This document shows, piece after piece, positions 11,471 to 22,745 of a stretch of DNA of 62,922 nt. The notes under the pieces were generated by a model, which searched no databases, was not told where the DNA came from, and saw only the letters and a program-made list of their open reading frames with translations. This DNA comes from Anaerolineae bacterium (GTDB lineage Bacteria; Chloroflexota; Anaerolineae; J102). The stretch is from positions 1 through 62,922 of the forward strand of contig JALXCB010000080.1 in assembly GCA_026991225.1 (NCBI GenBank), written 5' to 3'. Each line of letters starts with the position of its first letter. The stretch's first letter is position 1. The translations under genes and the position numbers were made by a program.

Positions 11471-12904
11471 ATGGCAAATGTCGTTCTCATTGGCGCCGGC
11501 TTTGCCGGGCAGACCGCGGCGCTCTATCTGGGTGACGCTCTGGGCAAAAAGCACAATATCACGGTCATCAACAGGTATGATGTCTTCGGATACACGCCAT
11601 CCTGGGTGTGGGTGGGCGTGGGGCAGATGGAGCCCGAGAAGACCACCTTCAAGCTCAAGCCGGTTTACGACAAATTCCATATCAATTTCGTGCAGGGAAC
11701 CGCGAAATCCATTTATGTGGATGACCAATACGTATTGGTGGACAAGGCTGATGGCAGCGGCGAGACGAAAGTTCCCTACGACTATCTGCTCATCGCCACC
11801 GGCGCCAAGTTGAACTTTGCAGGCACGCCCGGTCTGGGCCCGCACAACGGTTACACCACCTCGATTTGCTCTCTGCCCCACGCCATCGACGCTCGCGACA
11901 GGCTTTTCCAGCTCATGGAGCGCATGGAAAAGGGCGAGAAGGTGAAGATCGTCGTGGGGACCGGGCATCCCGGCGCCACCTGCCAGGGCGCGGCCTTTGA
12001 ATATCTCACCAACATCCACAAGGTGCTGCTGAAGCGGGGGCTGCGCGACAAAGCGGAGTTGCTTTGGCTATCCAACGAGCCCGCGTTGGGCGATTTCGGC
12101 GTGCGGGGCTTGCGCGTGCGCAAGGGTGGACAGATTATTACCAGCGAGGATTTCATCCGCGCCATTTTCGAGCTGTACGACATCAAGTGGCAGGTGCAAA
12201 CGGGCGTGCGCAAAGTGGAGCCTGGGAAAATCTATTGGGAGAATTACGAAGGCGTGGAGGGGGAAACCGAGTTCGATTTCGCCATGCTCATCCCTCAATT
12301 CCTGGGGCCCGGCTTTACCTATTTCGACAAGGACGGGAATGACATTACCGACCAGATGGCCAACAAAGGCGGCTTCGTCCTGGTGGACGCCATCTACGGA
12401 CTGGACTGGGATACGCTGGCTGAAACGCCCGAGGCCTGGCCCGCGGTCTATCAGAACCGCAAGTACAAAAATATCTTCGCCGCGGGCATCGCCTTCGCCC
12501 CGCCCGGCTCCATCTCCCGGCCCTTTGTCAACCCCAACGGCCTTTCCATCACCGCGGCTCCGCCCCGCACAGGCATGATCTCGGGCATTATCGGGCGTAT
12601 CGTCGCCCTGAACATCATCGACCTGGTCAAACGCGGTCGCATGACCCACTCCGAACGCATGACGGAGATGTTCGCGGCCTGTATTGCCTCCATGGGCGAT
12701 TCCCTGTGGGATGGCAGCGCCGCTACGATCGTCATCTATCCCGTCGTACCCGACCCCCGCACCTATCCCAACGAGGAAGGCCGCGACCTCTTCGTCACCG
12801 ACATGGAGATGGGCCTGGCGGGCGCATGGATGAAGCGCATGATCCACACGACATTCATGCACAAACTGCAAGGCCGCATCGGCTGGAAGTTCATCCCCGA
12901 ATAA
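11471..12904 (+). CDS. FAD-dependent pyridine nucleotide-disulphide oxidoreductase, sulfide:quinone reductase-like
   Basis: A 477-residue flavoprotein with the FAD-binding GAGFAG (8-13), the second dinucleotide region ([15 protein letters not shown], 160-174) and the late FAAGIAF motif. Overall order and length fit the SQR / flavocytochrome c sulfide dehydrogenase group. Cys133 and Cys171 are placed like two of the SQR redox cysteines. The third is not found at the usual FAAG site; Cys404 is a distant candidate. So the substrate (sulfide or another reductant) is open. An amphipathic C terminus ([12 protein letters not shown]) could bind the membrane. Electrons would pass to quinone, which fits the oxidase operon 2 kb away. 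GGAGG lies eight bases before the ATG. Confidence 0.75.
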
Positions 12905-13108: not shown

Positions 13109-13266
13109 ATAGGATTCGGATCAGGATTAGGATTGAAGATCGCCAGGCCGACGTTGAGCGAGCCTGCAACGTGCGTGACACGTGATGCGTGAAACGTGAG
13201 GGCTTTACGAATCACGCATTACGCATTACGTGATCGGCTTCCCGCGCCGCCCTGGCCGCGAGATAT
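13109..13266 (+). repeat. Composite intergenic repeat C, copy 3
   Basis: Forward copy: GGATTCGGATCAGGATTAGG, GATCGCCAGGCCGACGTTG, GCCTGCAACGTGCG, the hairpin GTGATGCGTGAAACGTG with GAATCACGCATTACGC, and the tail GGCTTCCCGCGCCGCCCTGG. Confidence 0.8.
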
Positions 13267-13358
13267 GTTCATCGGCATCGGCGTCCGTCACCGGAAAACC
13301 CTGTCCGCGCGCGGATGGGATTTTGGCGTTTTGGGAAAGGATGCGGGACAATATCGGC

Positions 13359-13817
13359 ATGAGCAAGAAATCTGTTGTCCTCATCATCCTCCTGCTTTCG
13401 ACAGCGCTGTTGGCCAGCGGATGCCGTAACAAGGGCGTCATCCAGGGCCAACCCGCCGACCCCAACCACCTGCCCGATCTGGCGGGAACTTACGCGGTCA
13501 ATGGTGTGGATCCCGCCGGAGAGAATTACGGCGGCACCCTGACCATCGAGCCGGGCGACGGGCCCAACGCCTACAAACTTCACTGGATCGTCACCGGCGC
13601 CATCCAGGAGGGGGAGGGGCGTATCGAAGGGAACCAGCTTGTTGGTCGGTGGTGGACGCTGGAGGGCATTACCGCGGCCAAAGGGGAATTGAAATACACC
13701 ATCACCACTCTGGGCGAGCTGGATGGCGAGCGCACGGTGGAGGGTTTTGAGCAAACAGGCTGGGAAAAAGCCTTTCCCAATGATGAAAAATGGGGCAGCT
13801 TCAAATTGGGGCATTGA
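13359..13817 (+). CDS. Small secreted lipoprotein, unknown function
   Basis: A 152-residue protein with a signal peptide and lipobox LASGC, with Cys22 as the lipid-modified residue. The mature part looks like a small beta-rich domain (LAGTYAVNGVDPAGENYGGTLTIE, then IVTGAIQEGEGRIEGNQLVGRWW), of the kind seen in extracytoplasmic fibronectin- or lipocalin-like proteins. I cannot name a family. A GACAAT hexamer ends six bases before the ATG and there is no ribosome binding site, so initiation may be leaderless. It faces the cytochrome operon across a convergent gap. Confidence 0.75.
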   Translation: MSKKSVVLIILLLSTALLASGCRNKGVIQGQPADPNHLPDLAGTYAVNGVDPAGENYGGTLTIEPGDGPNAYKLHWIVTGAIQEGEGRIEGNQLVGRWWTLEGITAAKGELKYTITTLGELDGERTVEGFEQTGWEKAFPNDEKWGSFKLGH

Positions 13818-14041: not shown

Positions 14042-14425
14042 TTACTTCAACGTCATCAGGTATTTGACCAACTGATTGATCTGCTCGTCCGAGAGTTTCT
14101 CACCGTAGTCCGGGGGCATGGTGCCGGCAGGGAATCCCTCGGTCACATCGGCGTCAGGATTGATGATGGATTCGCGAATGAACTCCTCGCCTTTGCTGGC
14201 AATGCCTGCCAGGGAGGGGCCGACGACGGTCTTGCCGGGCTCGACGGAATGACAGGTGACGCAGCCAGCATTGCCTTCCAGGGTGGTCTGTTCGAACAGG
14301 GCCTTGCCCGCAGCCACGTCGGGGTCGGTGCTGCCGCTGGAAGAGGACTTGTCGCCGCCGCCGCAGGCCGCGACCAGGGCCACGGTCAGGACAAGAATCA
14401 AAACCAGGAATGCCATCTTCTTCAT
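14042..14425 (-). CDS. Lipoprotein cytochrome c, monoheme
   Basis: A 127-residue protein with signal peptide and lipobox VAAC (Cys21), a short Ser/Gly linker, then a class I cytochrome c domain with CVTCH (heme c attachment) and a late MPPDYGEKLSDEQINQLVKYLMTL, in which Met is the probable distal heme ligand. It would be tethered on the outer face of the membrane and carry electrons to the CuA site of the ba3-type oxidase. It resembles the C-terminal domain of the fusion protein encoded just upstream (both end in VxYLMTLK/VAFLMTLK), which suggests gene duplication. GGAGG lies eight bases before the ATG. Confidence 0.92.
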   Translation of the reverse strand: MKKMAFLVLILVLTVALVAACGGGDKSSSSGSTDPDVAAGKALFEQTTLEGNAGCVTCHSVEPGKTVVGPSLAGIASKGEEFIRESIINPDADVTEGFPAGTMPPDYGEKLSDEQINQLVKYLMTLK

Positions 14426-14579: not shown

Positions 14580-17003
14580 TCATTTCAGCGTCATCAGGAA
14601 AGCGACCAGGTCATCCAGGTCCTGGGGCGAGAGGCCTTCGGAAATGTAGGCGGGCATCTTGTTGTCGAAGCCCGGCACGATGTAGGCGTCGGGATGGAGG
14701 ATGGATTCGCGGATGTACTCCTCCGCCGCCATGCCCGGCACGCGCGTCGCCGCGCGGGTGGCGATGCCCGCCAGTGAGGGGCCGACCTTGACTTCATCCG
14801 GTTTGAGGGAGTGACACAAGCGGCAGCCCGTGCCTTCGCCGATGCTGCTGGCGAAGAAAATCTCCTTGCCCCGGGCCGGGTCCGCCCCCGCGATCACTGC
14901 ATCCTTGATGATCAGCGGGAATATCTGCCGCCCCTGCAAGGAAATCTCGCCATCGAAAATCACCTGCGGGGGCGATTGCCCGGCCTGATCAGTCAGGGTG
15001 ACGGTGAGATGGTGTTTGCCCGAGGTCGTAGGCAGATATTCATACGCATAAGCAATGCCTTCTTCGCCCTTGCGGGGATACACTTTGTCCACCACGGTCT
15101 CGCCGTCCAACGCGATCACGAGATGGGGATCCGCCGCGTTGGTGAAGTCCAGAGCATCGGCCTCCACCGTCTTCTGCTCGGGCGTCCAGATGGGCACGCC
15201 GCTCTGATGCTTCATCTGCACCTCGATGGCGGCGTCGCCATCCCCGAACGGGGTGTAGGGCGTCAGGCTCAGGCCCACGGTGATGGCCATGAACAGGGCC
15301 AGCAGCGCGAACGCGGGCAGGAGTTTACCCCAATTCGCCCCGCGCAAGGTAAATCGGTAGGAAGTCGCCTCGGTCTGGTGTTCGTCGGCGTGCAGCGTCT
15401 GGGTGAAGTCATTGGGTGGGACCCAATCCATGCTGATGGGCGCGCCTGCGAACCGCCGCTTGAGCTTGGGCTGCCGCTCCCGCTCCAGACGCAGCTCCTC
15501 CCACACATTGCCCTCCCGATTGGCGCAATCTTCGGGCGGGCAGCCGATGACCTGCACCTCGGACGCGCCCGCTTCCAGCGCCCGGGCGATGAGGTTGGGA
15601 TGGGCCATGGCCGCGCAGGTGAGGGGAACGATCTCCACCCGCTGGTCATCCTCCTCCACAGCGCCGGGATGTTCGGAATCGAACATGAATTTCTTGGCCC
15701 CGTGGAAGAGATGGCGCTCGCAGGCGAATACGACCTTGACCGGTTTCTCGCTCGCTTGTGACGCCCGGGCCACGGTGTCCAGCCACAGGGCCTCCACCGG
15801 CTGGTCGCCCAGGGTGAGGGCGTCGGTGGGGCAACTGCCGATACAGACCCCGCAGGAGACGCACATCTTCGGGTTCACCACGGCCACATATTTGTGCGGC
15901 TTGCCGTCGGTGCGCTCCACCATGGTCAGGGCGTTGTAGGGACAATCCTTGGCGCACAGGGTGCAGCCAATGCACTTATCCTCGTGCACGACGATGGGCT
16001 CCAGCCTGGGCCGCACCAGATTCCCCAACAGCCAGGGGATGGCCGTGACCACGCCCAAAACCAGGAAATTCAGCGCCCAGAACAGGGTGGGGTTCATGTG
16101 CAGAGCCGTGGGCAGCGCCGCCAGATACCACAGATCGATGTTCATGCGGCCCGGAAGCTGCACCAAATTGTGCTTGGGCAGCATCCCCACCGGAATCAGA
16201 ATGGCCGCAATCGCCGTGAACCCCAGCGACAGCCAGATCCAATAGCGCGGCGGCAGGATCTTGCCCCGCTGCAACCGCTTGATGTGCAGCCACATGAAGA
16301 GGATGATGGACAGGGGCAGGCCGATATGGATGAAGAACAGGGTGACGAACAGCACCCAGCCCGAGGTTTCACTGATGGGCGTCAGGTGATTGAGGATGAT
16401 GGCGTCGCCATTGGGAAGCCGTCCGATCAGGTCGACGAAAACCTGGTTCAACGCCTGCGCCCGGATATCCGCCACCATCCAGTAGCCTGTCACCCCGGTG
16501 AACCAGATGGCGACGGCCATGACCACGCCCGTGACCCAGGCCAGCCAGCGGGGCCCGCGAAAGCGGTCCATAAAGAACATGCGCCAGGCGTGAAGCAGGG
16601 CCATGATGATGGCCAGGTCCGAGGCGTAGCGGTGCGCCGCCCGGATGACGCGCCCCACCAGACTGCGCTCCACATTGGAGACGGCCAGATAGGAGACGTC
16701 GAATCCGAACTGGTAGAACATGAGCAGGTACACGCCCGTGATGGAGATGAAGATCAACAACCACACGGTGATGGTGCCTGTGTGATACAGAGGATTCAGA
16801 TGCGGATTTTTGGCGATGCGGTTGACCGGTTTCTCCAGCGCCAGAGAGAAGCGCTCCAGCAGATTCAAAAAGCTCCTGACCCAATTCCCCTCCCGTTTGG
16901 GCCAATCCACCGAACGGTGAAAGGCCGACCAACGTCCCGAAAATCGGGGCGATGGCTCGTTTTCAGCGTCTTGCGTTTTTGCTTCCACGTCGAGGTCGGA
17001 CAT
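14580..17003 (-). CDS. Fusion protein: cytochrome b, 2x[4Fe-4S] ferredoxin, MvhD-like [2Fe-2S] domain, cytochrome c
   Basis: An 807-residue membrane protein that joins four redox modules. Residues 60-330 are a cytochrome b/b6 N-terminal domain with two bis-His pairs (H124/H138 and H226/H240, each 14 apart). Residues 340-395 hold two [4Fe-4S] motifs (C344-C347-C350-C354 and C381-C384-C387-C391). Residues 420-500 match the MvhD/HdrA-type [2Fe-2S] domain (C428, C463, C488, C493, GCPPEDCANREGN). A single membrane helix (562-580) leads to an extracytoplasmic domain and a C-terminal cytochrome c with CRLCH (727-731). A quinol- or ferredoxin-linked electron path across the membrane to the oxidase is inferred. 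I know of no named complex with this order. It is the main oddity of the respiratory cluster. Confidence 0.9.
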   Translation of the reverse strand: MSDLDVEAKTQDAENEPSPRFSGRWSAFHRSVDWPKREGNWVRSFLNLLERFSLALEKPVNRIAKNPHLNPLYHTGTITVWLLIFISITGVYLLMFYQFGFDVSYLAVSNVERSLVGRVIRAAHRYASDLAIIMALLHAWRMFFMDRFRGPRWLAWVTGVVMAVAIWFTGVTGYWMVADIRAQALNQVFVDLIGRLPNGDAIILNHLTPISETSGWVLFVTLFFIHIGLPLSIILFMWLHIKRLQRGKILPPRYWIWLSLGFTAIAAILIPVGMLPKHNLVQLPGRMNIDLWYLAALPTALHMNPTLFWALNFLVLGVVTAIPWLLGNLVRPRLEPIVVHEDKCIGCTLCAKDCPYNALTMVERTDGKPHKYVAVVNPKMCVSCGVCIGSCPTDALTLGDQPVEALWLDTVARASQASEKPVKVVFACERHLFHGAKKFMFDSEHPGAVEEDDQRVEIVPLTCAAMAHPNLIARALEAGASEVQVIGCPPEDCANREGNVWEELRLERERQPKLKRRFAGAPISMDWVPPNDFTQTLHADEHQTEATSYRFTLRGANWGKLLPAFALLALFMAITVGLSLTPYTPFGDGDAAIEVQMKHQSGVPIWTPEQKTVEADALDFTNAADPHLVIALDGETVVDKVYPRKGEEGIAYAYEYLPTTSGKHHLTVTLTDQAGQSPPQVIFDGEISLQGRQIFPLIIKDAVIAGADPARGKEIFFASSIGEGTGCRLCHSLKPDEVKVGPSLAGIATRAATRVPGMAAEEYIRESILHPDAYIVPGFDNKMPAYISEGLSPQDLDDLVAFLMTLK

Positions 17004-17092: not shown

Positions 17093-18757
17093 TTAGCCGC
17101 CGAAGATATTGGTGATGGGCGGCGAGGTGAACTGCGCCGTGGAGATCTGATAAACAAGCTGCGGGCCGTAGGCAATGACCAGCAGGATGACGACGCCCAC
17201 CAGCCAGGGAACCCAGCGATCCAGCCAGCGGGGCGTGGTCTGCGGGTCCAGCAACGATTCGGCCACCGGCGGTTCCGGCTCCTCGCTGAGCTTCTTCTTG
17301 GTGACCAGCGAGCCGATCATCACCGCCACGAACAGATAGACGGAGATGAGCAGGATGAAGCCGCCGATGCCCACGCGCAACAGGTGGCCTGCCCATTCTT
17401 CGGGAATGTAGGGAGCCGCGCCCAGAGGCGTGCGCCGTGGCGCGCCCAGCAGGCCCACCACGTGCATGGCATTGGAGAAGATGGTCATGCCGATGAACCA
17501 CAGCCACACCTGGATCACGGCGCACTTCTTGCACCAAAGCGGTTTCTTGGTGAGATAGGGAACCAGCCAGTAGAGGATGCCCATGAACGTCAGGGTGACG
17601 CCGGTGGCGACGGTGAGATGGAAGTGGCCGGGAACCCAGGCGGTGTTGTGCACCACCAGGTTGATGTTGTAAGAGGCGTTGATCAACCCGCCGATGCCGC
17701 CGAAGAAGAAGAGGATGCCCGCCAGCAACTGCGCCAGGACGCTGGGATCATTCCAGGGCAGTTTCGTAATCCAGCCCAGCAGCCCCTTGCCCCCGCGATT
17801 GCGGCCCGCGTTTTCCAGCGACGCCACCACAGTGAAGGCCGTAAGCATGGAAGGGAAGAAGACGGAGTAGGTGAGCAGGGAGTGGACCATCTTCCAGCCT
17901 TCTGGCACGCCGGGATCCACATATTGATGGTGGAAGCCCACAGGCACGGAGAGCAGCAGGAAGAGCCAGAAGGAAAAACGGGCCAGCGAATCGCTGAAGA
18001 GCTTGCCCCCGGCCTGGCGGGGCAGGAACGCATACCAGGACATGTAGGCGGGCAGGAGCCAGAAGTAGACCAGGGGATGGCCCGTCCACCAGAAGTAGGT
18101 GCGGTCGAGCTGCGGGTCCAGCCCGGCGCGCAGCCCCAGGGACCAGGGGATCAGGTCCACCAGCAGCTCCGCGGCCGCGCCCAGGGTGGCCACCTGCCAC
18201 ATAACCATGGTGATCAGCGACATGAAGGAAATGAGCGGGGTGCGGACGCCGGGATTTTCCTTGCGCCATTGATAATACGTGAGGTAAAACCCGTAGCCCT
18301 CGATCCAGCTCCCCACCACCACCAGGGTAACGCCGATATAGAAGGCGGGATGCGCCTTCATGGGGGGATAGAAGGTGTAGAGCACGCTGGCCTGGTTCAG
18401 CAGGATGGGCACAGCCGCGATCAGCAACCCCACCACCATCATCCAGAAACCGAGGGCGTTGAGTTTGGGATAGCGCAGGGGGCGCTTGAGGCCGTAGATG
18501 ATGGTGAAGGTGAGGAAGCCAGTAATGAAGAATGTGGTCCAGATGAGGGCGTTGAGCACGCCATGCAGCGTCAGCCCTTCATAATAGGAATGGAAGATGG
18601 GATTCAGGAACTTGTCATAGAAGTTCCAGCCCGCATGTTCCATGGCCTGGAAGGGCCCAAACAGGCTGCCAATCGAAAGCGCCGCAATGGCAAAGATGAA
18701 ATGCCAGCCAATGAAGCGTTTCTCCTTGGCTGTCAGTTGATAGGTGTTCGCAGTCAT
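17093..18757 (-). CDS. cbaA: Cytochrome c oxidase subunit I, ba3 type
   Basis: Heme-copper terminal oxidase catalytic subunit, 554 residues, about 13 membrane helices. Visible ligands are His65 (LHGVLNA, low-spin heme), GHPLVYFWLLPAY (CuB His and the cross-linked Tyr), the HH pair in GFHHQYVDPG and the HFH heme ligands in VPGHFHLT. The YS-type proton pathway pattern and the short subunit II place it in the B (ba3) family rather than the aa3 type. The start at 18757 is supported by GAGGAGA before it; an in-frame extension of 13 residues is rejected. It forms an operon with the genes at 18809, 19293 and 14580. Confidence 0.93.
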   Translation of the reverse strand: MTANTYQLTAKEKRFIGWHFIFAIAALSIGSLFGPFQAMEHAGWNFYDKFLNPIFHSYYEGLTLHGVLNALIWTTFFITGFLTFTIIYGLKRPLRYPKLNALGFWMMVVGLLIAAVPILLNQASVLYTFYPPMKAHPAFYIGVTLVVVGSWIEGYGFYLTYYQWRKENPGVRTPLISFMSLITMVMWQVATLGAAAELLVDLIPWSLGLRAGLDPQLDRTYFWWTGHPLVYFWLLPAYMSWYAFLPRQAGGKLFSDSLARFSFWLFLLLSVPVGFHHQYVDPGVPEGWKMVHSLLTYSVFFPSMLTAFTVVASLENAGRNRGGKGLLGWITKLPWNDPSVLAQLLAGILFFFGGIGGLINASYNINLVVHNTAWVPGHFHLTVATGVTLTFMGILYWLVPYLTKKPLWCKKCAVIQVWLWFIGMTIFSNAMHVVGLLGAPRRTPLGAAPYIPEEWAGHLLRVGIGGFILLISVYLFVAVMIGSLVTKKKLSEEPEPPVAESLLDPQTTPRWLDRWVPWLVGVVILLVIAYGPQLVYQISTAQFTSPPITNIFGG

Positions 18758-18808
18758 AAATCTCTCCTCGAAAAGTGCAAACCAATGGATGTGCAAACCA
18801 ACGGACGA

Positions 18809-19300
18809 TTACGGAACGACGATGACCTTGCCGTACATGGTGGCGTGGGCGATGCCGCAGTATTCCGTGCAGATGAAATCATATTCGCCCGGCTCGTCGA
18901 ACTTCACTGCCAGGCTGGAGACCTGGCCCGGAACGATCTGCATGTTCACGTTGGTGTTTTGCAGCTTGAAGCCGTGTTGAACGTCCCGGCTGGTGACATA
19001 GAATTTGACAATCGAACCGGCGGGAACCGTGATCTCGCGCGGATTGAAAGACCAGGTTTGGGCGACGATGTAAGCTTCGTAGCGTTTGGGGGCCACCTCT
19101 TTCAGGCCCGGTTCCGCGAAGGTGCCGCTGGCCTGCAAGTCGGTGGGATTCACTCGGGCCACTGGATCGGGCACGCGCACGCCAAAGGAGAGGCCCGCCA
19201 CGGTGATGGCGCCAAAGAAGACGGCAAGCATCAGAATGCTGACAATAATCCAGGTCTTCTCGTACGGATCAATGTGCATGGATTCGTGTTTGTTAGCCAT
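18809..19300 (-). CDS. cbaB: Cytochrome c oxidase subunit II, ba3 type (CuA)
   Basis: A 163-residue protein with one N-terminal membrane helix (16-37) and a cupredoxin domain outside the membrane. The CuA ligands are complete: His109, Cys144, Cys148, His152 and Met155 (CTEYCGIAHATM). It receives electrons from cytochrome c. The single helix and short length are typical of ba3 oxidases. Its start overlaps the stop of the small subunit by eight bases. Confidence 0.95.
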   Translation of the reverse strand: MANKHESMHIDPYEKTWIIVSILMLAVFFGAITVAGLSFGVRVPDPVARVNPTDLQASGTFAEPGLKEVAPKRYEAYIVAQTWSFNPREITVPAGSIVKFYVTSRDVQHGFKLQNTNVNMQIVPGQVSSLAVKFDEPGEYDFICTEYCGIAHATMYGKVIVVP

Positions 19301-19481: not shown

Positions 19482-19817
19482 TTATAAGACCTCGATGAGT
19501 CGATCGATGGTGATATCGGTGATCTGTCGTCTTTTGTAGAGGATAACTTTGTTTTCGTCTAAAATGACGAATAGAATCCTGTCTGGAATAAGATCGTTGT
19601 CATGGGCTGCAATCCGTTCCAGATCCGCCATCATCTCTTCAGCGTAGTGATAGTCGGCAATAAGCACATCCGGGTGAGCCTCCTCCATCATCCCTTTGGC
19701 TTCCGCCCAGCTTTCGGCGGAGCCGATGATCTCGACATCCGCGGGGCGATCCTCCAGAACGCGCACAAGGCCGTCGTGAAACATGCCGCGACTGACCAGA
19801 AGGACCCGAATGCTCAT
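19482..19817 (-). CDS. Stand-alone REC-like response regulator domain
   Basis: A 111-residue single domain with a receiver-like fold: MSIRVLLVSRGMFHDGLVRVLED, then the probable phospho-acceptor Asp in DVLIADYHY. It has no output domain and the C-terminal half is poorly conserved, so it may be a degenerate receiver that works by protein contact. It lies immediately upstream of the oxidase genes and downstream of the NarL-type regulator, so it may be the first gene of the oxidase operon. TATAAT ends six bases before the chosen ATG, which suggests a leaderless mRNA. Confidence 0.7.
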   Translation of the reverse strand: MSIRVLLVSRGMFHDGLVRVLEDRPADVEIIGSAESWAEAKGMMEEAHPDVLIADYHYAEEMMADLERIAAHDNDLIPDRILFVILDENKVILYKRRQITDITIDRLIEVL

Positions 19818-19909
19818 ACTCCCATTATAAAAGGAAACAACGCCCCACGTCGTCACCCCGCCCGACACAATCCCCTACCCCCACGGATACAAATTTCCAC
19901 CCAAATGGA

Positions 19910-20566
19910 TTACGCCATTGGGCTATTGCCCGTCAATCCGTGCCGTTCGGCCCAGGCCGCGGCCTGGGCCCGGCTGCGCAACCCCAGCTTGTCCAGGATA
20001 TGGCGCAAATGGGCCTTGACCGTGTGCGGGGAGATGGCCAGGGCCGCTCCGATCTCTTTGTTACTCATGCCACTGGCTACATAGCGCAGGATATCTCGCT
20101 CCCGATCGGTGAGGATATCCTCGGGCCGCTGCCGCTTGCCCTGGGAGAGGGCCACGAATTCATCCAGCAGTTTGGCCGACATGGCGGGCGAAATAACCGC
20201 CTCCCCGCGGCGGATGCGATGAATGGCGTCCACTAGTTCGTCGCTGGTGCTGCTCTTGAGCAGATAGCCGCGCACGCCCGCCTGCACCGCCCGAAACAGC
20301 GTCTCCCGATCCTCCGACACCGTCAGCAACAGGATGGTCAGGTCAGGGTGGCGCTCCTTCAGGCGACTGGCGGTCTCGATGCCATCCATGCCGGGCATGT
20401 TTACGTCCAGCACGACGACATCGGGCCGGTAATTATGGAAGGAGGCCAGCACCTCCTGGCCGCTACGCAGACTGGCCACGACTTCGATATCCTCCTCATC
20501 GTCCAGCAGCCGCGTCAGGCCTTCGCGAAAGAGATGATGGTCATCCGCCAGCAATACGCGAATCAT
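19910..20566 (-). CDS. NarL/FixJ-family response regulator
   Basis: A 218-residue two-domain regulator. The N-terminal receiver has the acidic pair (LADDHHLFREG), the phospho-acceptor Asp54 in VVLDVNMPGMDG and Lys in YLLKSS. The C-terminal LuxR-type helix-turn-helix is LTDRERDILRYVASGMSNKEIGAALAISPHTVKAHL. It pairs with the kinase gene three bases upstream (20570) and stands next to the oxidase operon, so control of respiratory genes is likely. Confidence 0.93.
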   Translation of the reverse strand: MIRVLLADDHHLFREGLTRLLDDEEDIEVVASLRSGQEVLASFHNYRPDVVVLDVNMPGMDGIETASRLKERHPDLTILLLTVSEDRETLFRAVQAGVRGYLLKSSTSDELVDAIHRIRRGEAVISPAMSAKLLDEFVALSQGKRQRPEDILTDRERDILRYVASGMSNKEIGAALAISPHTVKAHLRHILDKLGLRSRAQAAAWAERHGLTGNSPMA

Positions 20567-20569
20567 CGC

Positions 20570-22525
20570 TTAGCGTCCCTCCTCCACAAGATTGGGCGTG
20601 GTTTCTCGCGAGACGTCAATCAACTCGTAGGAGGCTTCGGCCGGCACGGGCGCGGTGACGATAATGGCGGCGCCTCGGTCCGGGCCCGTCATCACCGAAA
20701 GCTGGCCCCCGATGCTTTCCGCCCGCTCCCGCATGGAAGTCAATCCAAAACCTGATGTGCGGTCGTCCGTCTGGCTGGATGTGGCGGGGAACCCAATGCC
20801 GTTATCCGAGACGCGCAGTTCCAGCCATCCTTCCGCCAGGGAAAGCTGCACATCCACGTGGTCGGCGCGAGCGTGTTTGCGCACGTTGGTCAGGGCTTCC
20901 TGGGCGATGCGCAAGAGCTGGAGGGAGACTTCGGCGGGGGCCATGAGCTCTTCGGGATGCGCGGTGAAGGTCACGTCGATGCCGGTCTGGAATGCGAAGT
21001 CTTCCACATAATTCTCCAGGTTCTCGGCCAGACGGGTGGGATCATCCCAGCGCAGGCGCAGTCCCTCGATGGCTTCGCGTACGTCCATGTAGGCGGAGCG
21101 CACCACCTGACGCATTTCGGGCAGCTCTCGCTCGACTTTCTCATATTGCCCTTTCTGCAAAAGGCGGTCCACGCGTTCGAGCTGAAAGCCCAGATAGCCC
21201 AACGTCTGGGCCAGACCATCGTGGAATTCCCGGGCCAGGCGATAGCGCTCGCGCAGCATGGCCGTCTGCTGCAATTCCTGGGAGAGCTGGGCGTTGCGCA
21301 GGGCCAGCGCAATCTGATGGGCGAAGGTCTGGAGCAGATCCGCATGTTGGGGATTGAGCCCCTGCGGGCGCTTTGTGCCCAGGAAAAGCGCGCCGAAGGC
21401 TTCGCCTTCGCTGAGCAACGGCAGGGCCGCGGCGCTGCGCAGATCATGCGACTGCCGGGCGGGCAGCGCCCGGATGATGATGGATTGGTCGGCGAAAGCC
21501 TGTTGTGCGAGTTGTTGGGCGAAGCCGAACCGCGCTGAAGAAAAATCGCCCAGACCCTGCTGGGAAAGACAAACCCACTGGTCTAACGCCTCGTCATAAA
21601 GGAAGATGGCCCCCGCCTGGGCCTTCCAGCCCATGATCGCGGTCTGGAGAGTTTGCGAGGCCAGTTCGGACAGGGATTTGTGGGTGCGAGAGGCGTCGTC
21701 CAGGGAGTGTAGGGCCTCCATCTGGCGCTCGCGGGATCGCAGACTATCGACGGCGAAGGCGATGACGCCGCCCAGGATGTTGAGCAGATGGGCCTGCTCT
21801 TCCTTGGGCCCGTCGGCCGACGGGAAATAGGCGGTGAGGATGCCGATGCGCTCCTGGTCGGTGTGGATGGGCAGACACATGAGGGACTGCACGCCATCCT
21901 GTCGGGCTGCGTCGGCCACGCCAACGAACAGGGGACAATCGCCATCTACATGGGCGTGCAGCGTGCTGCAAGTGCGACACCGCTCTGCGGCCACGCCTTC
22001 CCCCAGATAATTGCGAAAGGCCTGGGCGTAATCGTCGCTCAAGCCCCAGGCCATGGCCAGATTCAAGGTCTGTTGGTCTTCATCGAAGGTGACCAGGGTG
22101 GCGGCCTTGGCGCCGACCAGTTCGGTGGGAGCCTGCACTGCGACCTTGTACACCTCATCTTCATTGGGAGCCGAGGCGATGTACTGGCCCAGACGATCCA
22201 GCGCCAGCAGTTTCTTGTGGCTGTCCTCCAATTCGGCGAAAGCCTTGCGCAACTCCTGTTCGGTCTCCGATTGTTTGGCCGCGTTGCGGGCGATGTACGT
22301 CAATCCCCACCATGCCACAATACTCCCGGTGACGGCGTAGACCAGCACCTCCAGCCACCAGCCCACCGGCGAGTTGCGGGGTCGGATCACCGTCTGCACG
22401 AAGAGCTGATGGAGCGCAGCCAGAGCCAGCACGATCATGGGCGCGTTCCATCGCAACAGCCGCAGTTGCTTGTGCAATGGCTGTTGGCGGAGATGCTGCC
22501 AGAGACTGGCGATCTTCCCTTGCAT
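20570..22525 (-). CDS. NarX/LiaS-type sensor histidine kinase with GAF domains
   Basis: A 651-residue kinase. Two membrane helices (about 29-47 and 55-78) are followed by a short coiled linker, a first GAF domain (about 110-265) carrying CRTC (183-186) and Cys197, a second GAF domain (about 285-410), a HisKA_3 dimer domain with the phospho-acceptor His435 in REFHDGLAQTL, and an HATPase domain (NVRKHA, DNGIGF, GFGLTSMRERA). The Cys cluster could bind a metal or iron-sulfur centre and sense oxygen or redox state; this is inference. The start at 22525 is preferred over a 49-residue extension that is encoded in repeat DNA. Confidence 0.88.
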   Translation of the reverse strand: MQGKIASLWQHLRQQPLHKQLRLLRWNAPMIVLALAALHQLFVQTVIRPRNSPVGWWLEVLVYAVTGSIVAWWGLTYIARNAAKQSETEQELRKAFAELEDSHKKLLALDRLGQYIASAPNEDEVYKVAVQAPTELVGAKAATLVTFDEDQQTLNLAMAWGLSDDYAQAFRNYLGEGVAAERCRTCSTLHAHVDGDCPLFVGVADAARQDGVQSLMCLPIHTDQERIGILTAYFPSADGPKEEQAHLLNILGGVIAFAVDSLRSRERQMEALHSLDDASRTHKSLSELASQTLQTAIMGWKAQAGAIFLYDEALDQWVCLSQQGLGDFSSARFGFAQQLAQQAFADQSIIIRALPARQSHDLRSAAALPLLSEGEAFGALFLGTKRPQGLNPQHADLLQTFAHQIALALRNAQLSQELQQTAMLRERYRLAREFHDGLAQTLGYLGFQLERVDRLLQKGQYEKVERELPEMRQVVRSAYMDVREAIEGLRLRWDDPTRLAENLENYVEDFAFQTGIDVTFTAHPEELMAPAEVSLQLLRIAQEALTNVRKHARADHVDVQLSLAEGWLELRVSDNGIGFPATSSQTDDRTSGFGLTSMRERAESIGGQLSVMTGPDRGAAIIVTAPVPAEASYELIDVSRETTPNLVEEGR

Positions 22526-22532
22526 GTCCAAA

Positions 22533-22561
22533 ACTTTACTAAAATCGCGCTTTTCTGTCAA
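22533..22561 (-). promoter_or_regulatory. Promoter of the kinase-regulator pair, leaderless
   Basis: Minus strand: TTGACA (22561-22556), 17-base spacer, TAAAGT (22538-22533). The ATG at 22525 lies seven bases beyond the -10, so the transcript should start at the codon itself. Confidence 0.75.
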
Positions 22562-22599
22562 TTGCTGTTCCGAAAATAGCGTTGCGTTGGTTTGTAAAA

Positions 22600-22745
22600 G
22601 CAACTCGAAACCCGCGTTGGGCGAGTCTGCAACGGGCGTAAAACGTGAAAACGTGAAACGCCATGTCCTCACGCATCACGTTTCACTCGTCATGTCTTCG
22701 GCTCCCCGCGCGGCCCTGGCCGCGAGACGTTTTCATCGGTATGGG
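22600..22745 (+). repeat. Composite intergenic repeat C, copy 4
   Basis: Forward copy: CGCGTTGGGCGAGTCTGCAA, hairpin of AAAACGTGAAAACGTG with CACGCATCACGTTTCAC, then GCTCCCCGCGCGGCCCTGG and TTCATCGGTATGGGCG. The same tail follows copy 1 (in reverse), so the element extends past the GCCCTGG block. Confidence 0.78.

Follow-up and report, generated by a model that had tools for sequence, protein, structure and literature searches.

A bc1-type cytochrome b with an inserted ferredoxin-MvhD block, associated with ba3 oxidases and eNOR-like reductases in Chloroflexota and Acidimicrobiia: a possible transmembrane electron conduit

Analysis of a 62,922-nucleotide stretch of Anaerolineae DNA (here called the window) has indicated that one minus-strand gene, at 14580..17003, encodes a cytochrome b-ferredoxin-FlpD-cytochrome c fusion of 807 amino acids. 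An earlier note on this DNA, made from the sequence alone, had presented the protein as one odd fusion; it is instead a member of a large, conserved family whose genes accompany those of ba3 oxidases and eNOR-like NO reductases. The reading we favor, tentatively and at not quite an even chance, is that the protein is a single-subunit transmembrane conduit, in which electrons from a cytoplasmic donor would pass first through Fe-S clusters, next over b hemes, and reach the neighboring oxidase by way of cytochrome c.

The reading frame starts with an ATG at 17003, stops at 14580 and contains no internal stops, and the plus strand of 14580-17003 is closed, with no open frame there; the single protein of 807 residues claimed in the earlier note is real as a gene. 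Pfam matches above the curated cut-offs run along it as Cytochrome_B (residues 65-244, 1.1e-15), a Fer4 dicluster (337-397), FlpD (PF02662; 453-533, 2.8e-10) and Cytochrom_C (710-807, 7.2e-8); no NCBIfam model scores over its cut-off against the protein. These matches, the MvhD-type cysteines and the predicted b-type bundle bear out the four-domain reading proposed from the sequence, and all the ligand positions that had been named (H124, H138, H226 and H240; C344/347/350/354; C381/384/387/391; C428/463/488/493; C727-R-L-C730-H731) are correct. An assembly artifact or a frameshift that joined separate genes is rejected, because full-length relatives at ~43-86% identity have the same domain order in many independently assembled genomes.

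The AlphaFold2 model of the fusion protein has a mean pLDDT of 85 and a pTM of 0.81. By fold match and Pfam, residues 65-333 (16005..16811, minus strand) form a bc1-type cytochrome b of helices A-F, which aligns with mycobacterial bc1 cytochrome b over 258 residues (VIA-align Z 23.5, rmsd 3.0); helices A-H are named here as in bc1. The heme-ligand histidines form one pair on helix B and another on helix D, the members of each lying 14 residues apart, as a bc1/b6f-type cytochrome b requires. Counted over 96 aligned relatives, they are fully conserved apart from two gapped rows: His124 (16632..16634) and His138 (16590..16592) on helix B are each present in 94 with a gap in 2, and His226 (16326..16328) and His240 (16284..16286) on helix D are present in 96/96 (all minus strand). 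In many rows the fold alignment extends to model residue 585, facing the end of bc1 helix G, and a seventh membrane helix (residues 558-579, 15267..15332, minus strand) lies in the model at the helix G place. With the match running on to residue 585, the chain is read, on the model, as helices A-F, a ferredoxin-MvhD block within the cytoplasmic F-G loop, and helix G; on this reading helix H has been lost and the chain ends outside the membrane. Structure prediction, which the earlier note had proposed as a check, gave the anticipated b-type bundle, and it also placed the Fe-S block inside the cytochrome b fold, an insertion which that note had not seen. Helices E-F do not match subunit IV significantly by sequence (hhalign E 0.066; reversed control 0.041), so that this correspondence is carried by the fold comparison.

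The quinol-site region of this cytochrome b is partly retained. In place of the bc1 PEWY motif, the ef loop has IDLWY (residues 289-293, 16125..16139, minus strand; placed by alignment and fold), and the family reads D-[PL]-[FW]-[YF]-L; a PEWY-type Qo motif is absent from the loop, its glutamate having been replaced. Among the aligned relatives residue 290 is Asp in 93/96 and Asn in 3/96, and D179, near the expected quinol pocket, is invariant. Since Asp290 is conserved and a cd1 helix occupies the bc1 quinol-site position in the outside loop, quinol chemistry may persist. In the alignment, His74 occupies the position of b6 Cys35, the residue that carries heme ci.

The inserted block begins with a 2x[4Fe-4S] ferredoxin domain in the cytoplasmic F-G loop (residues 337-398, 15810..15995, minus strand; Pfam, alignment and model), whose eight cysteines are present in 96/96 aligned relatives. 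It continues with an MvhD/FlpD [2Fe-2S] domain (residues 421-537, 15393..15743, minus strand) that, in comparison with PDB profiles, matches F420-non-reducing hydrogenase subunit D (9.3e-11) and MvhD (6.8e-8), cysteine on cysteine; Cys 428, 463, 488 and 493 are found together in 95/96. A degenerate relative (L073:8441-10555, minus strand) has lost all four MvhD cysteines and retains the heme and ferredoxin ligands. Loop charges follow the positive-inside bias, with K+R contents of 0.18, 0.26, 0.32 and 0.29 for inside stretches as against 0.04-0.06 for outside ones, and a weaker value of 0.11 just before helix G. This bias puts the Fe-S domains in the cytoplasm and the cytochrome c outside, in agreement with the topology already suggested from the sequence; the opposite placement, with the Fe-S domains outside the membrane, is unsupported.

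Beyond helix G, the model and the loop charges predict an outside beta-sandwich domain (residues 587-705, 14889..15245, minus strand), for which comparison returned only generic sandwich matches, with Z at most 7.5. It contains His599 (15207-15209, minus strand), which is invariant in the branch with fused cytochrome c (65/65), present in 6/7 of a deep branch and absent from the branch with a separate cytochrome c; a metal or heme ligand is a possible role. The C-terminal domain (14583..14885, minus strand), with C727-x-x-C730-H731, is a class I cytochrome c by Pfam and by fold match (Z 13 to proteins of this class, among them the cytochrome c domain of a caa3 oxidase). The candidate distal ligand, Met783, is found in 59/65 sequences, which completes the CxxCH plus Met pair of this class.

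Relatives at E < 1e-30 occur in 53 of 298 Anaerolineae genomes, and among the matches listed from those genomes ~19 reach the cytochrome c end. A survey of the phylum at a stricter profile cut-off found the family in 12/400 genomes, all of them Anaerolineae. A scan of named genomes yielded at least 532 relatives, the best 80 of which come from Chloroflexota (Anaerolineae, Caldilineae and others) and from Acidimicrobiia/Actinomycetota. At these 80 named loci, 64 proteins have the fused cytochrome c, and the sequences indicate that it joined the cytochrome b protein once: on the core tree the cytochrome c label needs two changes, versus a shuffled mean of 26.5, and the 64 fused domains form one clade (support 100/93). 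In relatives lacking the fusion, a cytochrome c gene commonly lies between COX1 and the cytochrome b gene; genomes G061, G179 and G223 have two copies each, one of each branch (fused and separate cytochrome c). The domain is fused in one branch and encoded by a separate gene in another, a 'Rosetta stone' pattern that hints at cytochrome c as the partner of this protein.

The placement of the gene given in the earlier note, between a cytochrome c gene and a ba3-type oxidase, is also right. Downstream lies a separate cytochrome c of 127 amino acids with a lipoprotein-like start (14042..14425; ORF and Pfam), and upstream lie COX1 of a B-family (ba3-type) oxidase (17093..18796), with the GHPLVY, HHQ and PGHFH motifs of the B-family O2-reductase set, and a COX2 cupredoxin (18809..19300; Pfam and motif) with the CuA-type motif CTEYCGIAH, all on the minus strand. 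COX1 is located <1.2 kb upstream of the fusion gene in 63/80 loci (a contig end cuts 4 more), and the distances among COX1 proteins correlate with those among fusion proteins (Mantel r 0.75; 0/999 permutations as high), as expected for genes of one operon. GHPLVY or GHPIVY, with the active-site Tyr, is present in 75/76 COX1 partners including that of the window, a count that describes the main branches only, as the set was partly picked by its GHPxVY motif. SCO genes adjoin in 50/80 loci. On the plus strand of the window are a small lipoprotein-like gene with no Pfam match (13230..13817), which is a neighbor in 43/80 loci, and a gene for a sulfide:quinone-reductase (SQR)-like flavoprotein (11471..12904), a neighbor in 14/80; the recurrence of the latter near the oxidase operon is a hint of a sulfide link. 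Upstream of COX2, at 19482-22672 (minus strand), a histidine-kinase-like gene and two response-regulator-like genes are retained in close relatives, and other relatives have SCO and Rrf2 genes in their place.

In the deep branch (L056 and L072-L077), most loci of which include a CopA-like ATPase gene, the COX1 partner has GHPAQQ in 7/7 cases, with Gln replacing the active-site Tyr. Gln at this position is the defining signature of eNOR (PMC8756737). A cytochrome cd1 gene lies near 3/7 of these loci (L056, PF02239; L074; L075). Within the operon, no cytochrome c is seen at most loci of the branch.

The earlier note had also suggested an unusual bc1 substitute, and this idea is weakened by the genomes that carry the family. 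The window genome, which is 97% complete, yields zero Rieske (PF00355) matches and no Cytochrome_B match besides the fusion; it does have complex I genes and an operon for alternative complex III (ACIII) with an A-family COX1 (ActD at 3.7e-63). (At L105, on C130 of the window genome, a COX2-cytochrome c fusion lies close to the ACIII operon and its A-family COX1.) ActD was found in 22 of the 35 carrier genomes checked, and the other 13 all have an extra Cytochrome_B match besides the fusion, which in G288 is partial only. The fusion as the sole complex III of the organism is consequently rejected, since ACIII or another bc-type cytochrome b is present in 35/35 carriers; this argues that the protein is an additional input and that the oxidase does not rely on it for quinol electrons. 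Rieske genes occur in 14/80 loci, mostly inside a set that encodes a GltD-like flavoprotein, cytochrome b6, subunit IV, Rieske and a triheme cytochrome c. This cluster, in which the GltD-like protein has ferredoxin clusters, is found at L057, L120, L124, L141, L169, L170, L182 and others.

Within the conduit that we favor, electrons from reduced ferredoxin, or from NAD(P)H via a flavoprotein, would enter on the cytoplasmic side at the [2Fe-2S] cluster of the MvhD type and the pair of [4Fe-4S] clusters, and the two b hemes would carry them across the membrane to the outside face. There they would pass to cytochrome c, either the fused domain or, where relatives lack it, the separate protein, and from it through CuA of the ba3 oxidase to O2; in the deep branch the acceptor would be the eNOR-like NO reductase. 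Such a conduit would work beside complex III and not in its place. MvhD passes on electrons from hydrogenase or formate dehydrogenase, and this known role in electron entry (PMC6019823), together with the pairing with a cytochrome c oxidase, suggests the inward-to-outward direction. No donor gene is consistently linked to the family; the GltD-like NAD(P)H flavoprotein adjoins it in some loci only. Besides this missing donor link and the retained quinol-site features, further points stand against the conduit: the passage of ferredoxin electrons straight to cytochrome c would conserve little energy, an operon cytochrome c is missing in most of the deep branch, and L073 has no MvhD cysteines. The computation shows the architecture of the protein with its ligand residues, its topology, its conservation and its gene association; which cofactors it binds, which way electrons flow, which donor it uses and whether a quinone is involved are inferences.

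The 'ferredoxin- or quinol-driven cytochrome c reductase' of the earlier note is still the best class of explanation, and its quinol-driven form, a Rieske-free quinol:cytochrome c oxidoreductase, is the next possibility to consider, although a doubtful one. Here menaquinol would be oxidized in the outside pocket, with one electron going to cytochrome c and the second through the b hemes to the inside Fe-S block and on to a quinone, NAD(P)+ or ferredoxin, in a bc1-like Q-cycle or a bifurcation. A true bc1-type cytochrome b, in which helices A-F come with cd1 and ef elements and with D179 (invariant) and D290 (nearly so) by the expected quinol pocket, is what such an enzyme would be built on, and the adjoining ba3 oxidase takes cytochrome c. 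However, Rieske is absent from the window genome and from the vicinity of the gene in most relatives, the PEWY glutamate is replaced throughout the D-[PL]-[FW]-[YF]-L family, and all 35 carriers checked have ACIII or another bc-type cytochrome b.

It is unlikely that the protein is instead a CcoG-like factor of oxidase biogenesis, which would reduce Cu(II) with cytoplasmic electrons and so supply Cu(I) to the CuA and CuB sites. CcoG/FixG cupric reductase is likewise a membrane protein with two [4Fe-4S] clusters and an outside beta domain (a periplasmic Ig-like C-terminal domain), and its gene adjoins a heme-copper (cbb3) oxidase (PMC7558416). Descriptions of CcoG do not include b hemes, cytochrome c or an MvhD domain. 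The SCO neighbors, the CopA-like ATPase of the deep branch and the constancy of His599 in two of the branches would suit this role, but any such oxidase usually has SCO and CopA genes nearby, and His599 is missing from the branch with separate cytochrome c. In addition, searches at E 0.01 gave zero Pfam matches to CcoG domains, and the class I cytochrome c, whether part of the protein or encoded beside it, fits electron transfer to CuA.

Inside-site quinone reduction next to heme bH has been proposed for b6f in cyclic electron flow. A comparable ferredoxin:menaquinone reductase, in which the Fe-S block would be the input, quinone would be reduced at the inside site next to heme bH and the cytochrome c side would be secondary, agrees with the position of the block, inside at heme bH, and with the retention of every inside ligand in relatives without cytochrome c; it is made improbable by the heme-copper oxidases and cytochrome c genes that constantly accompany the family and by the replacement of the heme-ci-carrying b6 Cys35 by His74. 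A Rieske-free, bc1-derived bifurcation, with menaquinol electrons split between cytochrome c/O2 and, via the b hemes, the ferredoxin-MvhD block, would let aerobic respiration yield reduced ferredoxin or NAD(P)H, but it is very improbable, and by our own estimate, with the membrane potential left aside, it is close to energetically neutral at the usually assumed menaquinol and cytochrome c potentials.

Comparison with known systems sets the family apart. The cytochromes b of bc-type are the core of quinol-oxidizing Rieske complexes, and the fusion shares with bc1/b6f cytochrome b helices A-F and a G-like helix, the four heme histidines on B and D, and the cd1 and ef elements; it differs in having no Rieske protein in the window genome, a degenerate PEWY, the F-G ferredoxin-MvhD insert, a C-terminal cytochrome c and no helix H. 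In QmoABC and DsrMKJOP, too, a membrane cytochrome b is connected to Fe-S modules on the cytoplasmic side, with an MvhD-like domain in QmoB, but that cytochrome b belongs to the NarI/HdrE type and the modules are subunits of their own. ACIII, like the conduit proposed here, supplies the cytochrome c oxidases of Chloroflexota with electrons without a Rieske protein, but it consists of unrelated proteins (ActABCDEF), encoded separately in the window genome. The order of a ferredoxin followed by an MvhD domain with four cysteines is that of MvhD/FlpD with the C-terminal ferredoxin of HdrA (HdrA2), where the module is soluble on a flavin subunit, whereas in the fusion it sits within a membrane cytochrome b (PMC6019823). 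No HdrA gene was recognized beside the fusion. The literature searched, which was largely open-access, yielded no paper describing the family; RME88945.1, with a cytochrome c homolog next to it, is listed in an appendix table, undiscussed, as having cytochrome b6, DMSOR-beta-like (Fe-S) and FlpD domains (PMC8756737). The parts are known, and the architecture, the insertion point and the bond with ba3 oxidases and eNOR appear undescribed.

Because the protein is a single polypeptide, the conduit can be tested by expressing one gene. If true, it would give O2 and NO reductases a new electron supply, one that has no Rieske partner. A plausible use would be the high-affinity disposal of O2 or NO by otherwise anaerobic cells, and the family would bear on oxygen handling by anaerobes and microaerophiles in Chloroflexota and Acidimicrobiia.
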